In this document: positions 11,234-37,977 of the stretch, piece by piece | Position numbering within the stretch: the first letter of the stretch is position 1 | Layout of the letters: each line of letters starts with the position of its first letter | DNA from: Armatimonadetes bacterium Uphvl-Ar2 | GTDB taxonomy: Bacteria > Armatimonadota > Fimbriimonadia > Fimbriimonadales > Fimbriimonadaceae | Reading direction: 5' to 3' | NCBI GenBank assembly: GCA_002162095.1 | Contig: CP021424.1 | Span: forward strand, 1,860,001-1,924,000 | DNA length: 64,000 nt | Translations under genes and position numbers: made by a program | The notes under the pieces: model-generated | What the model was told of the DNA's origin: nothing | The model's database searches: none | What the model saw: only the letters and a program-made list of their open reading frames with translations

Positions 11234-11448
11234 GTATACAAACTTCTACTTTTTTTTTTTCAGATACTTAAGTTACTATCCTGAGCATGAGGAAGTACTT
11301 GCTCATGTTAGGTGCCAGCATCGCCCTGGCGATCCCCCTTGCCGCGGTGACGGATGCTGCGGCGCGCGACTACCGAATCAACTCATGGAAGAACGACCCT
11401 AGCTGTGCTGAAGCCAAGGAGAAGTTGGCACAAGGCGAGCTGATGTCG
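11023..11448 (+). repeat. Direct repeat copy 1: dppC 3' end plus leader of Cys-rich gene
   Basis: Repeated at 12448-12870. It contains the last ~70 codons of the dppC-like gene, a T11 tract, a -10 box and the first ~54 codons of the Cys-rich gene. The intergenic and Cys-rich portion is nearly identical between copies. The dppC portion carries more substitutions (GESALSFLG versus GEKPLALLG), as if the copies came from different alleles. Confidence 0.92.
11274..11279 (+). promoter_or_regulatory. Putative promoter of first Cys-rich gene (TACTAT -10 with T11 tract)
   Basis: TACTAT lies 7 nt before ATG 11287, so transcription would start close to the start codon. A run of 11 T (11250-11260) ends 13 nt upstream of the box and covers the -35 area. 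The second copy has only 9 T. Confidence 0.5.
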
Positions 11449-11700
11449 GTTGTTAAGTGTGAGGCTCCGGACAAAGATTCCTGCTTCATCAGTTGTTCCA
11501 GAGTTAATGGACTTTGGACATACAAACTCAACAGCGGTATGCGCGGCTGTGCTCAGGCAACGGGCTGCGTAGACGGTACCTGTCGAGTGCGGATTTATGA
11601 AGCGTATCCTTGCAGTGCGAGCAACCTGGTGGAAAGCTACACTGAAAGCAATAAGCACTGCGGTCTTCCTACCTATGGATCTGGCGGTGCCGGAGAGTAG
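11287..11700 (+). CDS. Small secreted nine-cysteine protein (copy 1)
   Basis: 137 residues, no recognised family. The signal peptide MRKYLLMLGASIALAIPLAA with an AxA-type site near AVTDAAA predicts export. The mature chain has nine Cys, spaced C-x7-C-x3-C-x17-C-x5-C-x4-C-x9-C-x15-C after the first, and ends PTYGSGGAGE. The paralogue at 12709-13131 keeps the same Cys framework while most other residues differ after residue 54. An exported disulfide-stabilised mini-protein is likely; a surface, bacteriocin-like or pilus-associated role is speculation. It is 15 nt ahead of a pseudopilin gene, so the two are probably co-expressed. GC is lower than in dppC. Confidence 0.75.
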   Translation: MRKYLLMLGASIALAIPLAAVTDAAARDYRINSWKNDPSCAEAKEKLAQGELMSVVKCEAPDKDSCFISCSRVNGLWTYKLNSGMRGCAQATGCVDGTCRVRIYEAYPCSASNLVESYTESNKHCGLPTYGSGGAGE

Positions 11701-11715
11701 TTAGAGGTCGATACC

Positions 11716-12393
11716 ATGCCCGGAAAACGTCAACAATCGCAAGATTCTGATAGTCTACTTGAGCGTGGGCTAAGTATGGTCGAGATTCTAGTCAGTCTTG
11801 CGATTGTTGCCGTTCTTAGTATTCTCATATCAGCAGTCTTGATTAGAGCCAAGTCAAGCGCCCGTGTCGCGAGTTGTATGCAAAACCTGCGTCAAATTGG
11901 CCTTGCTTCCGAGTTGTACTCTAACGATGTTGATGGCAATTTTATACCATTTGGTACTCACATTCCAAACACCGTTCTCCAAGAGAGCGGTGTAGATATC
12001 CTATCTCAAGGAAAGGCTTGGAAACGTGAACTTGGTCGGTACGGAGTCGCCCGGGGACAGTTCTTCTGCCCGGATGATCCATATACAAACCCTCAAAGTG
12101 CGGACTCGCTAATGCCAATGCGACCTCAGTCTGAACATACACATGGAAGTGCACGTCTCTTAACGAGTTATGCAGTTGTGCATGCGGTGTACTTCCGAAG
12201 TATTGGATATAGTAGATCCAGCGTTGATAGTCCTTCCGAACGGCCATACGCAACTGACGGAGTAGTCGAGGTAAAGGGCGGTCTTGCAACTTACAATCAC
12301 GGCGTGCGATTTAATGTACTGCATATTGATGGTAGTGTGAAGAGCTATTCAAATACTCACACATTCCCAGCACTTCTTCGTCCTCGGCCATAA
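11716..12393 (+). CDS. Type II secretion/type IV pilus pseudopilin-like protein with H-x9-DG motif (copy 1)
   Basis: 225 residues. A prepilin peptidase site precedes the hydrophobic helix: RG^LSMVEILVSLAIVAVL, with the required Glu at +5. The helix continues through about residue 45, followed by SCMQNLRQIGLASELYSNDVDG and CPDDPYTNPQ. The C-terminus has NHGVRFNVLHIDGSVKSY, an H-x9-DG motif of the prepilin-type H-X9-DG family expanded in Planctomycetes, Armatimonadota and relatives. It would be inserted in the membrane and processed by a PilD-like peptidase not seen here. It follows the Cys-rich gene by 15 nt and is paralogous to 13146-13832. Confidence 0.88.
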   Translation: MPGKRQQSQDSDSLLERGLSMVEILVSLAIVAVLSILISAVLIRAKSSARVASCMQNLRQIGLASELYSNDVDGNFIPFGTHIPNTVLQESGVDILSQGKAWKRELGRYGVARGQFFCPDDPYTNPQSADSLMPMRPQSEHTHGSARLLTSYAVVHAVYFRSIGYSRSSVDSPSERPYATDGVVEVKGGLATYNHGVRFNVLHIDGSVKSYSNTHTFPALLRPRP

Positions 12394-12445
12394 ACTCTCA
12401 ATCGTATTTTGTCGGTCGCTGCCTTCCAGCTATAGTATCAGAGAT

Positions 12446-12658
12446 ATGGGTGAAAAGCCCTTGGCTCTCTTGGGGATTGGCGTGCAGCCGCCCAACCCGA
12501 GCTGGGGAAGCATGATCAACTCGGCGCGGTCGGAGATGAATAGCCACCCCACCCTTTTGCTGTGGCCGTGCTTGATCCTCTCGATGACGGTGTTTGCGCT
12601 GAACTTTGTGGGGGACGGCATGCGCCGCCGCCTCGATCCGCGCGCGAGTCAGCAATAG
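12446..12658 (+). pseudogene. Duplicated 3' fragment of the dppC-like gene
   Basis: Seventy in-frame codons matching the end of the dppC-like permease (GIGVQPPNPSWGSMINSARS through RRRLDPRASQQ). No membrane core or coupling loop is present, so it cannot act as a permease. Several substitutions (LILSMT versus LLLSLT) are conservative, as if this fragment came from a functional dppC allele of a related strain rather than from the adjacent gene. It marks the left boundary of the second cassette unit. Confidence 0.9.
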
Positions 12659-12870
12659 GTATACAAACTTCTATTTTTTTTTCAGATACTTAAGTTACTA
12701 TCCTGAGCATGAGGAAGTACTTGCTCATGTTAGGTGCCAGCATCGCCCTGGCGATCCCCCTTGCCGCGGTGACGGATGCTGCGGCGCTCGACTACCGAAT
12801 CAACTCATGGAAGAACGACCCTAGCTGTGCTGAAGCCAAGGAGAAGTTGGCACAAGGCGAGCTGATGTCG
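12448..12870 (+). repeat. Direct repeat copy 2: dppC 3' end plus leader of Cys-rich gene
   Basis: Second copy of 11023-11448, 1425 bp downstream. The T tract is 9 instead of 11. Identity to copy 1 stops abruptly after codon 54 of the Cys-rich gene. Confidence 0.92.
12696..12701 (+). promoter_or_regulatory. Putative promoter of second Cys-rich gene (TACTAT -10 with T9 tract)
   Basis: TACTAT, 7 nt before ATG 12709, preceded at 13 nt by T9 (12674-12682). Same arrangement as at 11274 but with a shorter T run. Confidence 0.5.
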
Positions 12871-13131
12871 AATGTAATCTGCAAGCCTGAGGGTGTTGAC
12901 GCTTGTCACAAGCCGTGTACTCCAACTCCGGGAGGGGGTGCCATTTACAAGCCACCCAGCGGATGGCGGGCATGCGGTGAGATTGATGTGTCCAAGTGCA
13001 CCTCGACCTTTTGCACCGTGAGGGCCTATGACGATACGTCTTGCGGTCCAACCTCGTTCTTGTACGAATACAACGAGAGTGCGCGTCGGTGTAATCAGCC
13101 AACGTATGGGTCTGGAGGAGCTGGAGAGTAG
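12709..13131 (+). CDS. Small secreted nine-cysteine protein (copy 2)
   Basis: 140 residues. The first 54 residues match the copy at 11287 except for one change after the signal peptide (AALDY versus AARDY). Beyond that the sequence differs almost completely (VICKPEGVDACHKPCTPTPG), yet the Cys spacing is kept (C-x7-C-x3-C-x18-C-x7-C-x4-C-x9-C-x15-C), as is the PTYGSGGAGE tail. A constant leader and Cys scaffold around a variable body suggests diversification by recombination or selection on a surface or secreted factor. It is followed after 14 nt by its own pseudopilin gene. Function unknown. Confidence 0.75.
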   Translation: MRKYLLMLGASIALAIPLAAVTDAAALDYRINSWKNDPSCAEAKEKLAQGELMSNVICKPEGVDACHKPCTPTPGGGAIYKPPSGWRACGEIDVSKCTSTFCTVRAYDDTSCGPTSFLYEYNESARRCNQPTYGSGGAGE

Positions 13132-13145
13132 ATTCCCAGATTAGC

Positions 13146-13832
13146 ATGAGCATTAAGCGGCAACATTCGTCTTTGTTGACTGTTCGTCATGAATCTGGCA
13201 TTAGTTTGGTTGAAGTACTTGTCAGCATTGCGATCGTTGCCGTACTTAGTGCTCTTATCTCTTTCGCGATTCTCCGGTCTAAGTCTGCTTCCAAATCGGC
13301 TGCATGCTTGCAGAACATGCGTCAAATTGGACTCGCAATTGAACTCTACGCCAATGACGTTGATAACTGTTTTCCTCCTTATGGTACGCACTGGCCTACG
13401 CCATATCTCACAGAGTATAATGCTTCTGATCTGGATGATCGACTAGAAATTGCTCAACGTTGGAAGAAGGCAGTTGCTGCATACGGAGTTAAAGAGCCGC
13501 AGTTCTTCTCGCCAGACGATCCCTTCACAAACGTACAAGCAGCTGAGGCATTGGTTCCCCTCAGGCCACTTGCCGATGGCTTGGGCGGTAAAGCTCGGTT
13601 GGTGACAAGCTATGCAGTTACCCTCTCTTTACGTTTTCACATAATTGGAGTAAGTCGCTCAGCAATTGAGCGACCTTCGGAAACTCCTTATCTTGCAGAA
13701 GGACTAGTCGAGCTGATCAATCCACCAAAGACTATCCATGGCGCGAGGCAAAACATTCTTCATGTCGATGGTAGCGTGAAGAACTATCCGAACACCCACC
13801 AGTTCCCTCAGGTGGTGAATCCGAAGCCATAA
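13146..13832 (+). CDS. Pseudopilin-like protein with H-x9-DG motif (copy 2)
   Basis: 228 residues, paralogue of 11716-12393. Prepilin site SG^ISLVEVLVSIAIVAVLSAL with Glu at +5, then CLQNMRQIGLAIELYANDVD, SPDDPFTNVQ, and IHGARQNILHVDGSVKNY with the H-x9-DG pattern. The order Cys-rich gene, pseudopilin is the same in both units, which argues for a functional pair. At the protein level the two pseudopilins are moderately similar throughout, unlike the Cys-rich pair, whose identity is concentrated at the N-terminus. The last 105 nt before glmS contain no gene. Confidence 0.88.
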   Translation: MSIKRQHSSLLTVRHESGISLVEVLVSIAIVAVLSALISFAILRSKSASKSAACLQNMRQIGLAIELYANDVDNCFPPYGTHWPTPYLTEYNASDLDDRLEIAQRWKKAVAAYGVKEPQFFSPDDPFTNVQAAEALVPLRPLADGLGGKARLVTSYAVTLSLRFHIIGVSRSAIERPSETPYLAEGLVELINPPKTIHGARQNILHVDGSVKNYPNTHQFPQVVNPKP

Positions 13833-13925
13833 CTGAACGTGGTTTGTCGGCTCGCATTGCGAGCAGGCCCAGGCGAATGTGCGCCCACCCACGCTGCGCC
13901 CGCACCGTCAACCCCCTGTACCGAC

Positions 13926-13931
13926 TAAAAT
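13926..13931 (+). promoter_or_regulatory. Putative -10 box of glmS
   Basis: TAAAAT, 6 nt before ATG 13938. No glmS ribozyme-like or other 5' leader can fit between the box and the start codon; transcription probably begins at the A of the ATG. Confidence 0.55.
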
Positions 13932-13937
13932 ACGGGC

Positions 13938-15767
13938 ATGTGTGGCATTGCGGGGTACGTGGGACCCCAGTCGGCCGTTCCGATTGTCTTCGACCAGCTT
14001 CGACGCCTGGAGTACCGAGGGTACGACAGCGCGGGCATTGCCTTCCCGCAGGGTGACCGCATCGGCATCCTCAAGCGCGCGGGCAAGCTGAGCGGCCTGG
14101 GCGAGATGTTGGCCCAAGAAACCCCCGAGTCCCACGTCGCCATTGCCCACAGCCGCTGGGCCACCCACGGCGCCCCCAACGACCTGAACGCCCACCCGCA
14201 CTACGACCAATTCGGGCAGATTGCGCTCATCCACAACGGGATCATTGAGAACTATCTCGAGCTCAAGACGGAACTCGCCCGGGAAGGGGACACCTTCCAG
14301 AGCGAGACCGACACCGAAGTCGCCGCCCACGTGATTGGCCGCCTGCACGCCCAGGGCCTGAGCCTGGAAGAAGCCGTGCGCCAGTCTCTGGCCAAGTTCC
14401 GGGGTGCGTACGCCTTTGTCGTGCTCAGTGCCCGCGAACCCGGCACCATCGTGTGCGCCCGCAACGCCAGCCCGCTCGTGCTGGGCTTCGGCGAGGGCGA
14501 AAACCTCCTCGCCAGCGACGTGCCCGCCCTCATCCCCTGGACCCGCCGGGTGTGGACCATGCCCGACGACACCGTGGCCGTGCTGACCAAGGACGGCATC
14601 CGGGTGACGGACGTAAACGGCCGCCCGGTGGAAGCCGAGCCCGAAGAAGTGACCTGGGACGTCGCCGCCGCCGAGAAGGGGGGCTACGAGCACTTCATGA
14701 TCAAGGAGATTCATGAACAGCCGCTGGTGGCCCGCCAGTGTCTGGCCGGACGGCTGACCGACGACAACCGGGTAGCCCTGGATGGCGTCTTCAGCGACCA
14801 CGTGTGGCAAGAAATTGACCGGGTGAACATCATTGGCTGCGGCACCGCCTACCACGCCGGGCTGATGGGCAAGCACCTGTTTGAGCGCATGCTGCGCCTG
14901 CCGACCGACGTGTTCTATAGCAGTGAATTCCGCTACGGCGACCCGCTGCTGAGCGACCGCTCCCTGGCCGTGTTTATTAGCCAGAGCGGTGAAACCGCCG
15001 ACTCCCTGGCCGCCCTGCGCCTGTGCCAGCAGCGCCGCATCCGCACGCTCGGCATTGTCAACGTGGTGGGCAGCGCCATCGCCCGGGAATGCGACCGCGT
15101 GATTTACACTCAGGCGGGGCCGGAGATCAGCGTGGCCAGCACCAAGGCGTACACCGCTCAGTGCCTGGTGCTGTTGCAACTAGGGATGACCATTGCCCAG
15201 CATCGAGAGATGCCCGGGGTGCGCGTGGAAGAAGTAGTGCGCGACCTGCGCCAGTGGCCGGAACGGGTGGTAGAAGCCCTGGGGCTGGAAGAGCAAGTGA
15301 AGCGCATTGCTAACGAGTGGGCGGATAGCCGCATGGCCTTTTTCTTGGGCCGCAACGCCGACGCCGCCGTGGCGCTAGAAGGGGCGCTCAAGCTCAAAGA
15401 GATCGCCTACATCCCCACGCAAGAAGGACCGGCGGGCGAACTGAAGCACGGCCCCCTGGCGCTGGTGGAAGAAGGCGTGCTGGCCGTGTTCGGGGCCACC
15501 GACCCGTTTGTGCGCGAGAAACTCGCCAGCAACGTGAAAGAAGTGCAAGCCCGGGGCGGGCGCGCGCTGATTATCACCACCCATGATGACGACACGATGG
15601 ACGGCGTGGGCGATGAGGTGCTGCGCATCCCCGGCGGCAAGACGCCGTACCTGAACGCGCTGATGAGCGTGGTGCCGCTGCAACTGCTGGCCTACTACAT
15701 GGCGCGGGCGAAGAACCTGGAGATCGACATGCCCCGCAACCTCGCCAAGAGCGTCACGGTCGAGTAA
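13938..15767 (+). CDS. glmS: Glutamine-fructose-6-phosphate aminotransferase (isomerizing)
   Basis: 609 residues, full length. Makes glucosamine 6-phosphate from fructose 6-phosphate and glutamine, the entry to peptidoglycan amino sugars. The N-terminal class II amidotransferase domain begins MCGIAGYVG with catalytic Cys2, then RLEYRGYDSAG and HSRWATHGAPN. Two SIS domains follow, with SSEFRYGDPLL and SQSGETADS in the first and EGALKLKEIAYIPTQEGPAG in the second. The C-terminus LPRNLAKSVTVE is the conserved ammonia-channel tail. It is monocistronic, with the -10 directly ahead of the ATG. Confidence 0.97.
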   Translation: MCGIAGYVGPQSAVPIVFDQLRRLEYRGYDSAGIAFPQGDRIGILKRAGKLSGLGEMLAQETPESHVAIAHSRWATHGAPNDLNAHPHYDQFGQIALIHNGIIENYLELKTELAREGDTFQSETDTEVAAHVIGRLHAQGLSLEEAVRQSLAKFRGAYAFVVLSAREPGTIVCARNASPLVLGFGEGENLLASDVPALIPWTRRVWTMPDDTVAVLTKDGIRVTDVNGRPVEAEPEEVTWDVAAAEKGGYEHFMIKEIHEQPLVARQCLAGRLTDDNRVALDGVFSDHVWQEIDRVNIIGCGTAYHAGLMGKHLFERMLRLPTDVFYSSEFRYGDPLLSDRSLAVFISQSGETADSLAALRLCQQRRIRTLGIVNVVGSAIARECDRVIYTQAGPEISVASTKAYTAQCLVLLQLGMTIAQHREMPGVRVEEVVRDLRQWPERVVEALGLEEQVKRIANEWADSRMAFFLGRNADAAVALEGALKLKEIAYIPTQEGPAGELKHGPLALVEEGVLAVFGATDPFVREKLASNVKEVQARGGRALIITTHDDDTMDGVGDEVLRIPGGKTPYLNALMSVVPLQLLAYYMARAKNLEIDMPRNLAKSVTVE

Positions 15768-15825
15768 TTCACCAAGTAAGGAACCTGGCCTAAAGTATCT
15801 ACCCCTTGTCGACTAGGGCTGGGGG

Positions 15826-16497
15826 TCAAGGCTTTTGAGCCTGTTCTTGCACGAGCTTGATTCGTTCACTCAGCATTTCTATTGAAGCGTCACTCACAGC
15901 CAACTTCTTGACTTCGCCTTCGTTGTAATCCAGAATCGTGAGAGACTTCCAACCAATTGATTGGAGGAATGTGTAGTCTGCTTTCATCCCGTCGCGCATT
16001 GATCCGTGGAGCTTCTCCGCCGGCGATGTGTAGTTCGGTCCGTAGGTGAAGTACCAGTACTCTCGAAGGAACCCTGTTAGGTGGATTCTTGGTTCCCCTT
16101 CAATGTCATTGACCAGAACGTACGTACGGTAAAACTTGTTTGGGTCCGCTTTTGAATACCAAGTCTGCTCAACCGAACCTTGGGACTGGCTCAAAACTGC
16201 GTTCTCAACTTTGCCCGGTTCCATACTTGCGAGTGGGGCCTTGACGTGGCGAATTATGCTTTGACATTGCTCAACTGTCGTCGAGTTTGCCTTTCTCTCC
16301 TCCGCAATTTGATATTTTAGCAGCACTCGACAATCGTTCGATTGAAATGCTTTGAAGATCACTGCGGCATGAGCCTGCATGGACTGCGGGCGGGTTAGCC
16401 AACGATAAAGGAGTGCACAACCTAACAAGAGGGCTACGCATACTAGCCAAACGAGTATCGGCCTCGATCTCATCTTTCCAATAATAGCTGTAATCAT
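15826..16497 (-). CDS. Hypothetical single-pass membrane protein
   Basis: 223 residues, not recognised. One N-terminal membrane span (ILVWLVCVALLLGCALLYRW) follows a short basic leader, with the remaining ~180 residues probably outside. That region has two Cys (NDCRVLLKY, VEQCQSIIRH) and aromatic strands (FLREYWYFTYGPNY). An internal ATG eight codons downstream, behind GGAAAG, is an alternative start. It is the last gene of a four-gene minus-strand island (lipoprotein, pseudopilin, Cys-rich protein, this gene), 21 nt after the Cys-rich gene. GC is visibly lower than in glmS and kbl on either side, suggesting acquisition. Confidence 0.6.
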   Translation of the reverse strand: MITAIIGKMRSRPILVWLVCVALLLGCALLYRWLTRPQSMQAHAAVIFKAFQSNDCRVLLKYQIAEERKANSTTVEQCQSIIRHVKAPLASMEPGKVENAVLSQSQGSVEQTWYSKADPNKFYRTYVLVNDIEGEPRIHLTGFLREYWYFTYGPNYTSPAEKLHGSMRDGMKADYTFLQSIGWKSLTILDYNEGEVKKLAVSDASIEMLSERIKLVQEQAQKP

Positions 16498-16518
16498 ATT
16501 GGGTTGTGCACTCCAGTG

Positions 16519-16872
16519 CTAGCCAGGTCCGGGGCCCGGCAGAACGGCATCACAGTGTGGAGTGGGCGACGTGACACATAGTGCCCCCTCAGTGTTGATC
16601 CGGTTCACGGTCATGCCTGTCCCACACCAAGGAAATCCATGGCACGAGTAACTCATGTATTCGCAGAGGCAACAACCGCTACCGTTAGTATAGCATGCCG
16701 TGTAGGTCGCTCCAAGCGCGAGGACGTTGCAAAGGTTGCCGCATCCATACGAAGTGCACCCAACATCGGAATTGACGCCACTAAATCTCTCTTTCCCCCA
16801 ATTGCATGGGGGAGCGTAGGCGAAGGATGCAAGGCCAGCGAGAAGCAAGCCTAGTGCTATGGGTCGTTTCAT
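16519..16872 (-). CDS. Small secreted Cys-rich protein (12 cysteines)
   Basis: 117 residues, no recognised family. ATG 16872 is preferred over the ATG four codons upstream because GGAG sits at a normal distance before it. The signal peptide MKRPIALGLLLAGLASFAYA is followed by a mature chain with 12 Cys, including NGSGCCLCEYMSYSC and SDVGCTSYGCGNLC, and a short Gly/Pro tail. It resembles the two nine-Cys proteins at 11-13 kb in size, export and proximity to a pseudopilin, but not in Cys spacing. The neighbouring CxxxC lipoprotein could assist disulfide formation (inference). Confidence 0.7.
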   Translation of the reverse strand: MKRPIALGLLLAGLASFAYAPPCNWGKERFSGVNSDVGCTSYGCGNLCNVLALGATYTACYTNGSGCCLCEYMSYSCHGFPWCGTGMTVNRINTEGALCVTSPTPHCDAVLPGPGPG

Positions 16873-16897
16873 TTTTTTCTCCATTGGTGTTGTCGGA

Positions 16898-17515
16898 CTA
16901 TTGGGATTCCCAATTTCTAAGCTTATCTGGACGGCCCTTCATTGACCGCCTTTGCACGTGACCATCCCAGAAGGCTCCGATTGCGCTCCTAGTTCTGAAA
17001 GGCGACTGGCTGGCCTCGTTGTAGTCGTCATGAGTCATATCTAGGATGATCAACGGATTGCCGCCTGTATTCGTCACATGTTCCTTCCATTGATGTAGCC
17101 TGGATTCTTGATTGCTGGTCAACGATGTGTAAGTCGGGGGAATCCACATGTAAAGCGCACTATCTTTGAATCCCAGAATGTCATTGCCGCCGGTTCGAGT
17201 CAAAGATTTCGAAATGTGCCCTGAATCAAGCAAAGACTTCATTCCATCTTGTAATGAAATCTCATCGAGGTCAGAGTTGTAGATGTGTTGGGCGGCAACG
17301 ATCTGCTTCATCTGTGCCATCGAGCGGGTTATCTTGGCGCTCTTCTTTGCCTGAGTGTAAGTTGGGAACAGCAGCGCCGCAAGCATCGCGACGATGGCTA
17401 CGACGATCAGAAGTTCGATTATGGTAAATCCTTGCGCAGTGGGTTTAGAGTGTCTTAGCAAAGGTGCCCTCCGAAAGTGGTTCGGTCGTAAAGGACGTGA
17501 GAACTTGCTTTTCAA
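16898..17515 (-). CDS. Pseudopilin-like protein
   Basis: 205 residues from the longest frame; the true start may be later because the first ~24 codons overlap the end of the lipoprotein gene. Prepilin motif QG^FTIIELLIVVAIVAMLAAL with Glu at +5 and a long hydrophobic helix. Then ITRSMAQMKQIVAAQHIYNSDLDE, as in G-type pseudopilins. Near the end, GAFWDGHVQRR keeps the DG element but lacks the His of the H-x9-DG pattern. It is paired with a downstream Cys-rich gene (26 nt away), so the pseudopilin/Cys-rich association recurs here in reverse order. Confidence 0.82.
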   Translation of the reverse strand: MKSKFSRPLRPNHFRRAPLLRHSKPTAQGFTIIELLIVVAIVAMLAALLFPTYTQAKKSAKITRSMAQMKQIVAAQHIYNSDLDEISLQDGMKSLLDSGHISKSLTRTGGNDILGFKDSALYMWIPPTYTSLTSNQESRLHQWKEHVTNTGGNPLIILDMTHDDYNEASQSPFRTRSAIGAFWDGHVQRRSMKGRPDKLRNWESQ

Positions 17516-17873
17516 AAAGCATCATCTTGCCCGACCAGGACGCTCCAATCCGATGAAATGTGCGGCTATCAACGGACTTGTAGTGGATTCTCGAATGGTG
17601 AAAGCGACGCGAGGTGATCGGTTCTGTTTCAGGGAACAGAATATAAACCGCGTCCACGTTAGGCAGCACCGTCATCAAATCGAAGTCAGATTTTCTGCAA
17701 ATGGATTGGCACGGTTCCGCAAATACGAGCACTCGTGGTGATTGGTCATCAATCTTCAAATCCGAAAGAGTCAAGTCTGAATCAGGTTCAATCAGGGAGG
17801 CGGGCATTGCAGGTTCTGCTGAGTTGCAGCTCACTGCGAGTATCGCTAGCCAAAGAAATGGAAACAGTCTCAC
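17445..17873 (-). CDS. Putative thioredoxin-like lipoprotein with CxxxC motif
   Basis: 142 residues from GTG 17873, with AAGGAG about 7 nt upstream and a TATACT -10 further up (17893-17898). The N-terminus MRLFPFLWLAILAVSC is a lipoprotein signal with Cys16 as the lipidation residue. After a short linker comes a beta strand followed by two cysteines, RVLVFAEPCQSICRKSDF, resembling the active-site region of thioredoxin/SCO-type folds but with CxxxC rather than CxxC. The fold assignment is tentative. It heads the Cys-rich/pseudopilin island, so an envelope thiol-redox role toward those products is plausible. Unlike many core genes here, it has a normal leader with a Shine-Dalgarno sequence. Confidence 0.5.
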   Translation of the reverse strand: MRLFPFLWLAILAVSCNSAEPAMPASLIEPDSDLTLSDLKIDDQSPRVLVFAEPCQSICRKSDFDLMTVLPNVDAVYILFPETEPITSRRFHHSRIHYKSVDSRTFHRIGASWSGKMMLFEKQVLTSFTTEPLSEGTFAKTL

Positions 17874-17931
17874 AACTCATCTCCTTTGCTGAAGTATAAG
17901 GCAAGAATTTGGATGAATAGCATTTTTTTTG

Positions 17932-17953
17932 GAGTAGGCCTAAAGGCCTACTC
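17932..17953. repeat. Perfect 9-bp inverted repeat upstream of kbl
   Basis: GAGTAGGCC-TAAA-GGCCTACTC in the intergenic space between the divergent lipoprotein and kbl genes. The T8 run lies on the 5' side on the plus strand, so it is not a standard terminator in either direction. It lies upstream of the kbl promoter and may be an operator or a hairpin remnant of island insertion. Confidence 0.7.
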
Positions 17954-17990
17954 AATGGATTAGAATTGAACTTGGTAAGATTCAGGTGAG

Positions 17991-19190
17991 ATGAACGACA
18001 CCCTCCAGTCTTGGCTCAAAGGTGAGCTCCAGTCGCTGCGTGACCAGAACCTGTACAAGGTTCCGCGCATCCTCAATTCTCCGGCGGGGGGCCGGGTGCA
18101 GATGGATGGCCGGGAGGTCATCAACCTAAGCAGCAATAACTATTTGGGCCTGGCCAACGACCCGCGCGTGCGGCAGGCCGCCGAAGAAGCCATCGAACGT
18201 TGGGGCGTGGGCGCGGGGGCCGTGCGCTGGATTGGCGGCACCATGGAAGTCCACGACGAGCTCGAGCGCAAGCTGGCCGAGTTCAAACATGTGGATTCGG
18301 TGTTGGTGTTCACCGGGGGCTTCACGGCCAATAGCGGCTGCATCCCGGCGGTGGTGACGAAGGACGACGTCATCATCAGCGACGAACTCAACCACGCCAG
18401 CATCATTGACGGAGTACGCCTGAGCGCGGCCAGCTACAAGAAGAGCGAGGGCTGGGTGTACGCGCACAAGGACATGGACGCGCTGGAAGACTGCCTCAAG
18501 CGCGCGCAGGGCTTTAAGAAGCGGATGATCATCACCGATGGGGTCTTCAGCATGGATGGCGACATTGCGCCCCTGCCGGAGATCGTGGCGCTGGCCGAGC
18601 AGTACGACGCCTTTGTAATGGTGGACGACGCCCACGCCAGCGGGGTGCTGGGCAAGAACGGGGCCGGCACCGCCAGCCACTTTGGCCTCTACGGCCGGGT
18701 GGATATCCAGCTCGGCACGCTCAGCAAAGCGCTGGGGGTCATTGGCGGCTACATCGCGGGTTCGCACGAACTGAAGGATTGGCTCATCAACCGGGGCCGT
18801 CCGTACCTCTTCAGCACTGCGCACCCGCCGATGGTGGCGGCGGCGCTGATCAAGGCACTGGAAATCATGCAAACCGACCCGACGCCGATGGAGCGACTGT
18901 GGGCCAACGCCCGCCGCTGGAAGGTGATGCTGAACGAAGCCGGATTTGACACCATGGGCAGCGAGACGCCCATCACTCCGGTCTACGTGGGTGACGAAGG
19001 GGCCGCGCAGCGGATGGAGCGCATGCTGTGGGACGAAGGCGTTTACGCGCTGGCCATCGTCTACCCGACGGTAGGCTTGGGCAAGGCCCGCATCCGCACG
19101 ATGCCGAACGCGACGCACACCGAGGAAGACCTGGACCAGGCGCTGCGGGCCTTTGTGAAGGTGCGCGACCAACTGGGCGCTGTGCACTAA
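17991..19190 (+). CDS. kbl: Glycine C-acetyltransferase (2-amino-3-ketobutyrate CoA ligase)
   Basis: 399 residues, a PLP enzyme of the alpha-oxoamine synthase family. It interconverts 2-amino-3-oxobutyrate plus CoA with glycine plus acetyl-CoA in threonine degradation. Visible features: EVINLSSNNYLGLANDPRV, the GGTMEVHDELE segment, DELNHASIIDG, VMVDDAHASGVLG (PLP Asp/His) and Lys246 in GTLSKALG, which forms the Schiff base. Family members include BioF; the N-terminal and NYLGLA details favour Kbl, though a BioF-like specificity cannot be excluded. No tdh neighbour is present. AGGTGAG precedes the ATG and TAAGAT lies at 17976-17981. Confidence 0.85.
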   Translation: MNDTLQSWLKGELQSLRDQNLYKVPRILNSPAGGRVQMDGREVINLSSNNYLGLANDPRVRQAAEEAIERWGVGAGAVRWIGGTMEVHDELERKLAEFKHVDSVLVFTGGFTANSGCIPAVVTKDDVIISDELNHASIIDGVRLSAASYKKSEGWVYAHKDMDALEDCLKRAQGFKKRMIITDGVFSMDGDIAPLPEIVALAEQYDAFVMVDDAHASGVLGKNGAGTASHFGLYGRVDIQLGTLSKALGVIGGYIAGSHELKDWLINRGRPYLFSTAHPPMVAAALIKALEIMQTDPTPMERLWANARRWKVMLNEAGFDTMGSETPITPVYVGDEGAAQRMERMLWDEGVYALAIVYPTVGLGKARIRTMPNATHTEEDLDQALRAFVKVRDQLGAVH

Positions 19191-19209
19191 ATTTCTGCGG
19201 TGAAATCGT

Positions 19210-19240
19210 CCCGCCGACCTTCCGTGGTCGGCGGGTTCCT
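19210..19240 (+). terminator. Rho-independent terminator after kbl
   Basis: CCCGCCGACC (19210-19219) pairs with GGTCGGCGGG (19226-19235) across a 6-nt loop and is followed by TTCCTCT. It begins 19 nt after the kbl stop. Confidence 0.85.
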
Positions 19241-19381
19241 CTCCAGAGAGCGAGGGTTCGACGGGAGGAGGAAACCCGTCTGTATTGCAGGATAACCAGA
19301 AATCCTGCTCTTTGCCGCGAGTTATCCACAATTGCTCGATTTCGTCTTGTAAATTCTTCGTTAAAGTGGACGAATGTCTGC

Positions 19382-36955: not shown

Positions 36956-37615
36956 TCACTTCCGCGTTTCTGCGCACAAAGTGTTTGGATCAACGTCGCT
37001 AAACAGCGCCGCATAGCAGAGCTGAACTTCGCCGCTCGCACTACGGTCGCTTAGAGTATCGGTCGAAACCGACCCGTCCAGTCGTGCTCTTACAATGCGC
37101 CCCTGGTATCCGGTAAGCGAGCCGAAGCACTCAGGTGTATTGCCATGCAACCAATCACCAAGACCACGGTAGGCGACCAGCGCATAGTTCTGGTCGTGCT
37201 TCTCCAGGGTGGTGATGTGAACGTTTCGAGTGGAAGTCTCTGCAAAGACATCCTCAAACGAATTGCGAATTCCTGGCTTGAGCGGCGTGGTCCATCCCTG
37301 GCAGCCTTCAATCCAATGGGCCAAGCCTTCAGGCTTCGGATCCCCTTTGACATGAAGGACAACCGGATCAAGGTGTCCTGAGATAACCGCTTCACCCAGG
37401 TGATTCTCGGGCCACTGCCCGTATTCGGTGTGGTACAGCTGGAGACCGATCCCAACTTGCTTAGCCTTGGCAATCGCATCGGCCTTGAAGGCCTCGCGCT
37501 TGGCAGCGCGATAGATGGGGAAGGTAAGCCCCGCTAGTAAAAGGATGATAGCGAGAGTGACCAACACCTCCACCAGGGTAATTCCTAATCTTGATCGAGC
37601 CGATTTGCAATCCAT
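36956..37615 (-). CDS. Pseudopilin-like protein
   Basis: 219 residues. Prepilin site LG^ITLVEVLVTLAIILLLAGL with Glu at +5, then FPIYRAAKREAFKADAIAKA, KQVGIGLQLYHTEYGQWPEN, a pattern typical of G-type pseudopilins. The C-terminal part has RARLDGSVSTD, a DG element without the His of H-x9-DG. Cysteines are few. The first 31 nt overlap the end of the small membrane-protein gene, so the two are coupled. It sits in a lower-GC cassette bounded by 42-bp repeats between the antiporter and the DsbD-like gene. Confidence 0.85.
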   Translation of the reverse strand: MDCKSARSRLGITLVEVLVTLAIILLLAGLTFPIYRAAKREAFKADAIAKAKQVGIGLQLYHTEYGQWPENHLGEAVISGHLDPVVLHVKGDPKPEGLAHWIEGCQGWTTPLKPGIRNSFEDVFAETSTRNVHITTLEKHDQNYALVAYRGLGDWLHGNTPECFGSLTGYQGRIVRARLDGSVSTDTLSDRSASGEVQLCYAALFSDVDPNTLCAETRK

Positions 37616-37977
37616 ACGGCAACGACGCCTCCTATCGTCATGGGGCCAACAATCATGTATCCGAAGTCTCCGAGTCCTTTGGCCAGTTGGGGCGATGGCA
37701 CGGGAAGATGGATCAAACCTAGCGTAATGATGCCGAGAATCAAGACGGCAAGCAGTTTCTTGTCCTTGATCAAGAACGTAGAAATCGTCGCCAAGGCCAC
37801 CGCGAGAACGTAATCAACCCACAGCGTTCCTGCGTTCCACTGCAAGAAGTCGCGTGATTGGGCCACGCGAATCCCCACGTAGACGCCGGTCCAAACCAAG
37901 CCACCCAGACAGGCTCCGGTCAACCTCACCAAGAAGGGAGGCTTCTTCATAGGTTGAATGGAAGAATCACCGGCCAT
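37585..37977 (-). CDS. Small membrane protein of the pseudopilin cassette
   Basis: 130 residues, not recognised. Four hydrophobic segments: LTGACLGGLVWTGVYVGI, LWVDYVLAVALATISTFL, LLAVLILGIITLGLIHLP and YMIVGPMTIGGVVAVWIA. There is a basic N-terminus and no conserved functional motif. It overlaps the pseudopilin by 31 nt and is the upstream gene of the pair. A role in membrane handling of the pseudopilin is possible but unsupported. Confidence 0.6.
   Translation of the reverse strand: MAGDSSIQPMKKPPFLVRLTGACLGGLVWTGVYVGIRVAQSRDFLQWNAGTLWVDYVLAVALATISTFLIKDKKLLAVLILGIITLGLIHLPVPSPQLAKGLGDFGYMIVGPMTIGGVVAVWIANRLDQD

Follow-up and report, generated by a model that had tools for sequence, protein, structure and literature searches.

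The window analyzed in this study (the whole stretch of 64,000 nucleotides) harbors a low-GC stretch at 15826-17873 with four genes on the minus strand, which follow each other in the order TRX, PIL, CYS, and MEM and are flanked by glmS and kbl (Table 1). The GC content of this cassette ranges between 46% and 54%, compared to about 62-67% on both sides. A preliminary description of this DNA had proposed a low-GC island with four genes; all four minus-strand ORFs were indeed present, and the GC drop was seen. Likewise, 57 out of 62 related cassettes were below their own flanks in GC content (mean difference, -4.9 points), a reduced GC content thus characterizing the module. TRX and PIL overlap by ~17 nt, and the gaps between PIL and CYS and between CYS and MEM amount to 13 and 21 nt, respectively. 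This tight arrangement suggests that the four genes are likely to form one operon, giving rise to one transcript.

Table 1. Features of the four-gene cassette and its surroundings (positions refer to the window).
Feature	Position	Strand	Basis
Whole inserted or lost stretch	15767..17991		blastn of window 13900-19300, ORFs of sister genome
TRX, lipoprotein, putative divergent DsbE/TlpA/ResA-class thioredoxin-like protein, CQSIC	17445..17873	-	ORF, relatives, family profile
PIL, predicted pseudopilin with class III signal peptide (G^FTIIE)	16898..~17461	-	PF07963, TIGR02532, conserved in cassettes
CYS, predicted exported 12-Cys protein, hypervariable family, 8-Cys framework	16519..16884	-	Family alignments, AF2 model
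MEM, one N-terminal TM, predicted NTF2-like extracytoplasmic domain, C-terminal helix-hairpin-helix	15826..16497	-	Alignments, AF2 model
Perfect inverted repeat GAGTAGGCCT/AGGCCTACTC between cassette and kbl	17932..17953		
T8 run (reading A8 in cassette orientation), ~50 bp ahead of the TRX start	17923..17930	+	

TRX comprises 142 aa, starts with GTG, and features the lipobox LAVSC in addition to its CxxxC motif. As a single query, it retrieved no relative outside its own genome, so that profiles were needed, and it had no match in Pfam or NCBIfam. The family profile, built from 38 relatives, matched DsbE/CcmG (E=4.5e-5), the thioredoxin family (1.3e-4), and StoA (1.3e-3) in the PDB, with TlpA-like proteins and ResA also being among the matches; the best family member matched Redoxin with E=8.7e-5. 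When the window's own subfamily was left out of the profile, the window TRX ranked first of all window ORFs (E=0.003). The family is therefore best classified, by homology, as DsbE/TlpA/ResA-type thioredoxin-like proteins, and the window protein appears to join it, so the thioredoxin-like context previously assumed for the lipoprotein is borne out by the family profile. In the family alignment (38 rows), both Cys residues are invariant, and their spacing is CxxC in 36 of the 38 rows; the window's CQSIC and CGDGC of locus L014 contain an extra residue between them. Most rows feature P-R or a similar pair at the cis-Pro place, followed by a strand typical of thioredoxins, whereas the window protein has S-G-K there. 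Activity of the window copy is uncertain, because it has CxxxC and misses the cis-Pro of most family members.

For PIL, the listed start codon (TTG 17515) is the first possible one, and TTG 17461 leads to the short leader LLRHSKPTAQG^FTIIE. The protein matched PF07963 with 28.3 bits (cut-off 21.2) and TIGR02532 with 25.1 bits (cut-off 16.3), and its class III signal peptide comprises both G^F and E5. As deduced from these features, PIL is a predicted member of the type IV prepilin superfamily. Its assignment as a GspG major pseudopilin was rejected, since the corresponding equivalog model TIGR01710 reached 39.9 bits, below the cut-off of 88.85. Membership in the Verru_Chthon families was dismissed as well (22.8 of 70 bits for TIGR02596 and 15.1 of 256.5 bits for TIGR02599). 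A further pseudopilin-like ORF is located at 36959-37813 (minus strand) of the window (pilin profile, E=3.7e-18). Among the relatives, pilins with seven Cys residues were found in two cassettes without CYS (L127, 3619-4362, and L128, 3657-4406).

CYS is a protein of 121 aa with 12 Cys residues and a signal peptide. The alignment of 50 members revealed seven or eight common Cys columns and almost nothing else conserved, which defines a single hypervariable family built on an 8-Cys framework, the spacing of which looks like a disulfide scaffold; apart from the CC core, no metal motif recurred in this alignment. Using the family alignment, AF2 confidently predicted an all-beta structure with a mean pLDDT of 82.5 (about 92 for the mature part/core). 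Searches of Pfam, NCBIfam, and PDB sequences gave no match for CYS, and neither Foldseek nor VIA-align returned a convincing structural match for the model. The best structural matches, Lockin and affimers, were judged uninformative (Z of 3.5 or less). For a predicted structure, the absence of a fold match does not prove a new fold. A relationship to MauA was also rejected, as the MauA Pfam family was not among the matches of the 50 CYS members up to E 0.05.

MEM (223 aa) was modeled with a pLDDT of 93.7. A TM segment at residues 9-34, corresponding to the single-span protein noted earlier, precedes a domain at 37-155. Sequence searches of Pfam, NCBIfam, and the PDB yielded no match for MEM and weak NTF2-like hints only. 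For residues 37-155, VIA-align provided a list filled with NTF2-like entries at Z 5-6, the best being 3k7c (Z 5.8, rmsd 3.9 over 101) and 4r1k (Z 5.8, rmsd 4.5 over 117), values under 8 being a sign of a common arrangement and not of function or descent. Foldseek returned mixed top matches with E above 0.001 only, and a nucleotidyltransferase match was discarded (TM 0.17). Judged from the model, the domain is predicted to adopt an NTF2-like fold. Since the TM anchor is replaced by a lipobox in the MEM proteins of L113, L118, L119, and L120, the domain most probably resides outside the cytoplasm.

The CYS search retrieved relatives in three other genera, with all four genes being together at those loci, an association exceeding chance. 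Profile searches then detected the four-gene set in 8 out of 85 Fimbriimonadaceae genomes, including the window's own; one of the seven others has a contig end inside CYS, and CP075364 is one of the relatives (Fimbriimonadaceae, Armatimonadota). Gene order is constant among the eight family genomes except for G008 (L019), where TRX comes last; rearranged full copies are represented by L019 and L137. The MEM profile matched 47 of the 85 genomes, with up to eight matches per genome. In about 60 MEM loci fetched from this family, a pseudopilin almost always directly precedes MEM, and most of these loci feature a Cys-rich exported ORF between the two and a CxxC ORF just upstream. A deeper MEM profile reached other families and more distant Armatimonadota lineages, namely 84 of 291 Armatimonadota genomes and 50 of 156 genera (E 1e-6 or better), often in several copies. 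Most of the 20 loci fetched beyond the family showed the same module arrangement, CYS and TRX being recognized there by profiles built solely from Fimbriimonadaceae. ORF calls in the relatives were scripted, without curated annotation. Two further cassettes, L118 and L119, reside in the window's own genome. MEM had no match in plasmids or phages, and no paper on such cassettes was found in the literature searched. Based on these comparisons, the four small genes appear to represent a real conserved operon with many copies across the Armatimonadota; the system is real and larger than the preliminary description had suspected.

The distribution of the genes among cassettes differed. Within the Fimbriimonadaceae set, TRX was present in 44 of the 50 cassettes bearing CYS versus one of nine without it (p=1.1e-5); for the family and the second set together, the values were 57 of 65 versus 2 of 14 (Fisher p=1.8e-7), and without tandem copies the co-occurrence gave p=1.8e-5, all of these being hand-curated counts and statistics that ignore shared ancestry. 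The HMMs missed TRX of L118 and L119, which was found by eye, and in the other cassettes, a lack of TRX was therefore verified by inspection of the upstream ORFs. Exceptions comprise six to eight CYS-bearing cassettes without TRX and L107, which has TRX (CxxC) and no CYS. At the sdaA locus, genome G000 carries TRX-PIL-CYS-MEM and its sister G001 carries PIL-PIL-MEM, with flanks being 95-97% identical. In L127, which is devoid of CYS, TRX keeps the first Cys and has lost the second. The near confinement of TRX to CYS-bearing cassettes gives good support, by association, to its suggested function as a dedicated disulfide enzyme for CYS. This part of the earlier proposal gains from the co-occurrence, but the window copy itself, with CxxxC and no cis-Pro, is of uncertain activity.

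Co-divergence was highest for PIL and MEM (distance correlation rho 0.33; 0 of 1000 permutations), followed by TRX-MEM (0.21) and CYS-MEM (0.13). PIL and CYS distances were not correlated (rho 0.04; 322 of 1000 permutations) and thus do not support a specific recognition between these two. PIL and MEM are frequently paired in the absence of CYS (L065, L069, L082, L092, L102, L110, and L111). Pairs of this kind, lacking CYS and TRX, and the top co-divergence value argue for PIL-MEM as the core of the module, with CYS and TRX as an optional pair. Both by co-divergence and by constancy, PIL and MEM are thus the closest pair, and not PIL and CYS, whose functional pairing had been put forward before. 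Regarding MEM copy number, a single PIL-CYS pair is followed by four tandem MEM genes in L086 (4356-7076).

The same pairing had been assumed to recur in another island of the window, at 11287-13832. This first island consists of two tandem units, each composed of a Cys-rich protein and a pseudopilin, with near-identical signal peptides and diverged mature parts; the ABC permease gene located upstream has its 3' end duplicated (12446-12658). Its Cys-rich proteins gave no match to the CYS family, and the island has neither MEM nor TRX. Hence, it was rejected as a second copy of the system and represents a different one, and the presumed recurrence is not supported.

Comparison with the sister genome G001 revealed that glmS and kbl are adjacent there, 37 bp apart, and that precisely the stretch 15767-17991 is lacking. 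G001 is also devoid of the L119 cassette, the site being clean and its flanks sharing 93-98.5% identity, and the third cassette site of the window's own genome differs in content from that of G001. Thus, cassettes are gained and lost as units. The MEM tree shows deep branching and, for the most part, poor resolution, and members with the window's CYS type do not form one clade. Mobility as a transposon or phage was rejected, because the cassette contains no transposase and no clear terminal repeats; the 9-mer ggcctaaag occurs near both cassette ends, which may be chance. In L020 (G017:C3:337500-346000), the cassette is likewise found near kbl, some 1.9 kb upstream of this gene and on the opposite strand, reflecting either common site ancestry or a hotspot.

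Only three A/T runs of at least 8 nt occur in the 64-kb window (11250, 12674, and 17923), and these lie directly upstream of the two first-island units and the four-gene cassette. The two tandem copies of the first island carry tracts of unequal length, T11 and T9. Uninterrupted runs of at least ten T occur at five sites of the genome, comprising the first island, L119 (T14), L118 (T15; between TTGCTT and TACAAT), and two others (L149, 1501-1510, and L148, 1501-1510), located just upstream of exported-looking genes of 450 aa and 311 aa, respectively, whose signal peptides were judged by eye. Among the relatives, A/T runs of at least 8 nt were found near 3 of 42 TRX starts versus about 0.2 expected. 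By analogy, slippage at poly-T tracts may switch some cassettes on and off (phase variation), for which SabA of Helicobacter pylori is a precedent (PMC2715451).

Taken together, the cassettes probably, though by no means certainly, serve to export or display a disulfide-stabilized protein via a common type IV filament (T2SS/T4P-like) machine. CYS, for which the signal peptide is seen in the sequence, would reach the extracytoplasmic space via Sec; there, TRX, attached through a lipoprotein or TM anchor, would oxidize or isomerize its disulfides, as suggested by fold class and co-occurrence. PIL, carrying the N-terminal motif, would be cleaved by prepilin peptidase and enter the pseudopilus. 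MEM, anchored at the membrane with its NTF2-like domain outside, may act together with PIL as an adaptor or assembly factor, consistent with constant linkage and co-divergence, and the pseudopilus would finally carry the hypervariable CYS out or display it at the cell surface. Whole cassettes would be gained, lost, and diversified, and some possibly switched by the upstream poly-T. The window's own genome encodes 46 N_methyl prepilins versus four platform proteins; as the cassettes contain no machinery genes, one common machine serving them is the simplest assumption.

NTF2-like folds occur among immunity proteins, and CYS might be a disulfide-stabilized antibacterial toxin delivered via the pseudopilus and folded by TRX, with MEM being the anchored immunity protein. 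The small size, export, and hypervariability of CYS, the patchy cassettes with their fast turnover, and the existence of MEM arrays such as that of L086 would fit; however, given the many PIL-MEM pairs devoid of CYS, MEM is not bound to CYS, its co-divergence with PIL exceeds that with CYS, and no toxin-like match was obtained in Pfam or the PDB. The PIL-MEM core with its optional CYS and TRX speaks against MEM as immunity protein for CYS, and we regard this explanation as rather improbable.

Slightly more credit, albeit at an unlikely level, is given to CYS as a tip protein of the pseudopilus, either an adhesin or a structural cap, the cassettes then being alternative, phase-variable surface-attachment modules. 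No adhesin fold match was obtained for the CYS model, and just 3 of the 42 relatives have the A/T runs near TRX, but a hypervariable exported beta protein is encoded beside a pilin, poly-T tracts lie upstream of cassettes, and Fimbriimonas is described as non-motile, with pili suggested for attachment (PMC4072686). Finally, a Cys-rich protein with a thioredoxin partner and no machinery genes nearby could also make up a periplasmic redox or metal-handling system, in which the pilin-like protein is a membrane-anchored scaffold without a filament. This is very improbable, given that PIL has retained both the class III signal and the E5 residue that characterize assembled pilins, and that the Cys spacing of CYS resembles a disulfide scaffold in which, apart from the CC core, no metal motif recurs.

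Dozens of pseudopilins and few filament machines are present in the individual genomes of the phylum, and the cassette provides part of these pseudopilins with partners and a testable job. For part of the orphan pilins of Armatimonadota, this is the first family-level context. Moreover, the cassettes offer a naturally occurring collection of small disulfide proteins that are hypervariable and come with oxidoreductases of their own. MEM is unusual in being an NTF2-like protein that is anchored to the membrane and linked to a pilin. Extending the export and display reading, we tentatively consider it possible that the cassettes constitute an undescribed, multicopy, phase-variable repertoire of the Armatimonadota, in which a common filament machine would be combined with interchangeable PIL-MEM adaptors and hypervariable, disulfide-rich cargo that adopts a new fold and is in each case served by a separate oxidoreductase.

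Regarding known systems, TRX resembles the TlpA/DsbE/ResA oxidoreductases in its family profile, extracytoplasmic anchor, and the CxxC of most family members, and the window copy differs from them by CxxxC, the missing cis-Pro, and the absence of a Pfam or NCBIfam match. MauD is a dedicated thioredoxin-like maturation factor, and MauA is the 12-Cys small subunit of methylamine dehydrogenase. As with TRX and CYS, the gene for a thioredoxin-like protein adjoins that for a small, exported, disulfide-rich protein; unlike in the cassette, no pilin is involved, and CYS has no MauA Pfam match up to E 0.05. The Verru_Chthon cassettes (TIGR02596 and TIGR02599; NCBIfam) likewise comprise pilin-type proteins in cassettes of another environmental phylum, and PIL matches both models via its N-terminus, but the partner genes are others and the scores of PIL are far below the curated cut-offs. 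The 79 PulG genes of Fimbriimonas ginsengisoli represent orphan pseudopilins of the same class and abundance as here, the available part of that report describing neither the cassette nor the partners (PMC4072686). The T4b pilus of Vibrio cholerae exports a co-encoded secreted protein by means of its minor pilin (TcpB-TcpF; PMC9565799). Although that operon has the full machinery and the cassette has none, and although CYS is unrelated and TRX and MEM are additional, both systems, as judged here from gene adjacency, encode a pilin-type protein together with a partner that is secreted there and predicted to be exported here.
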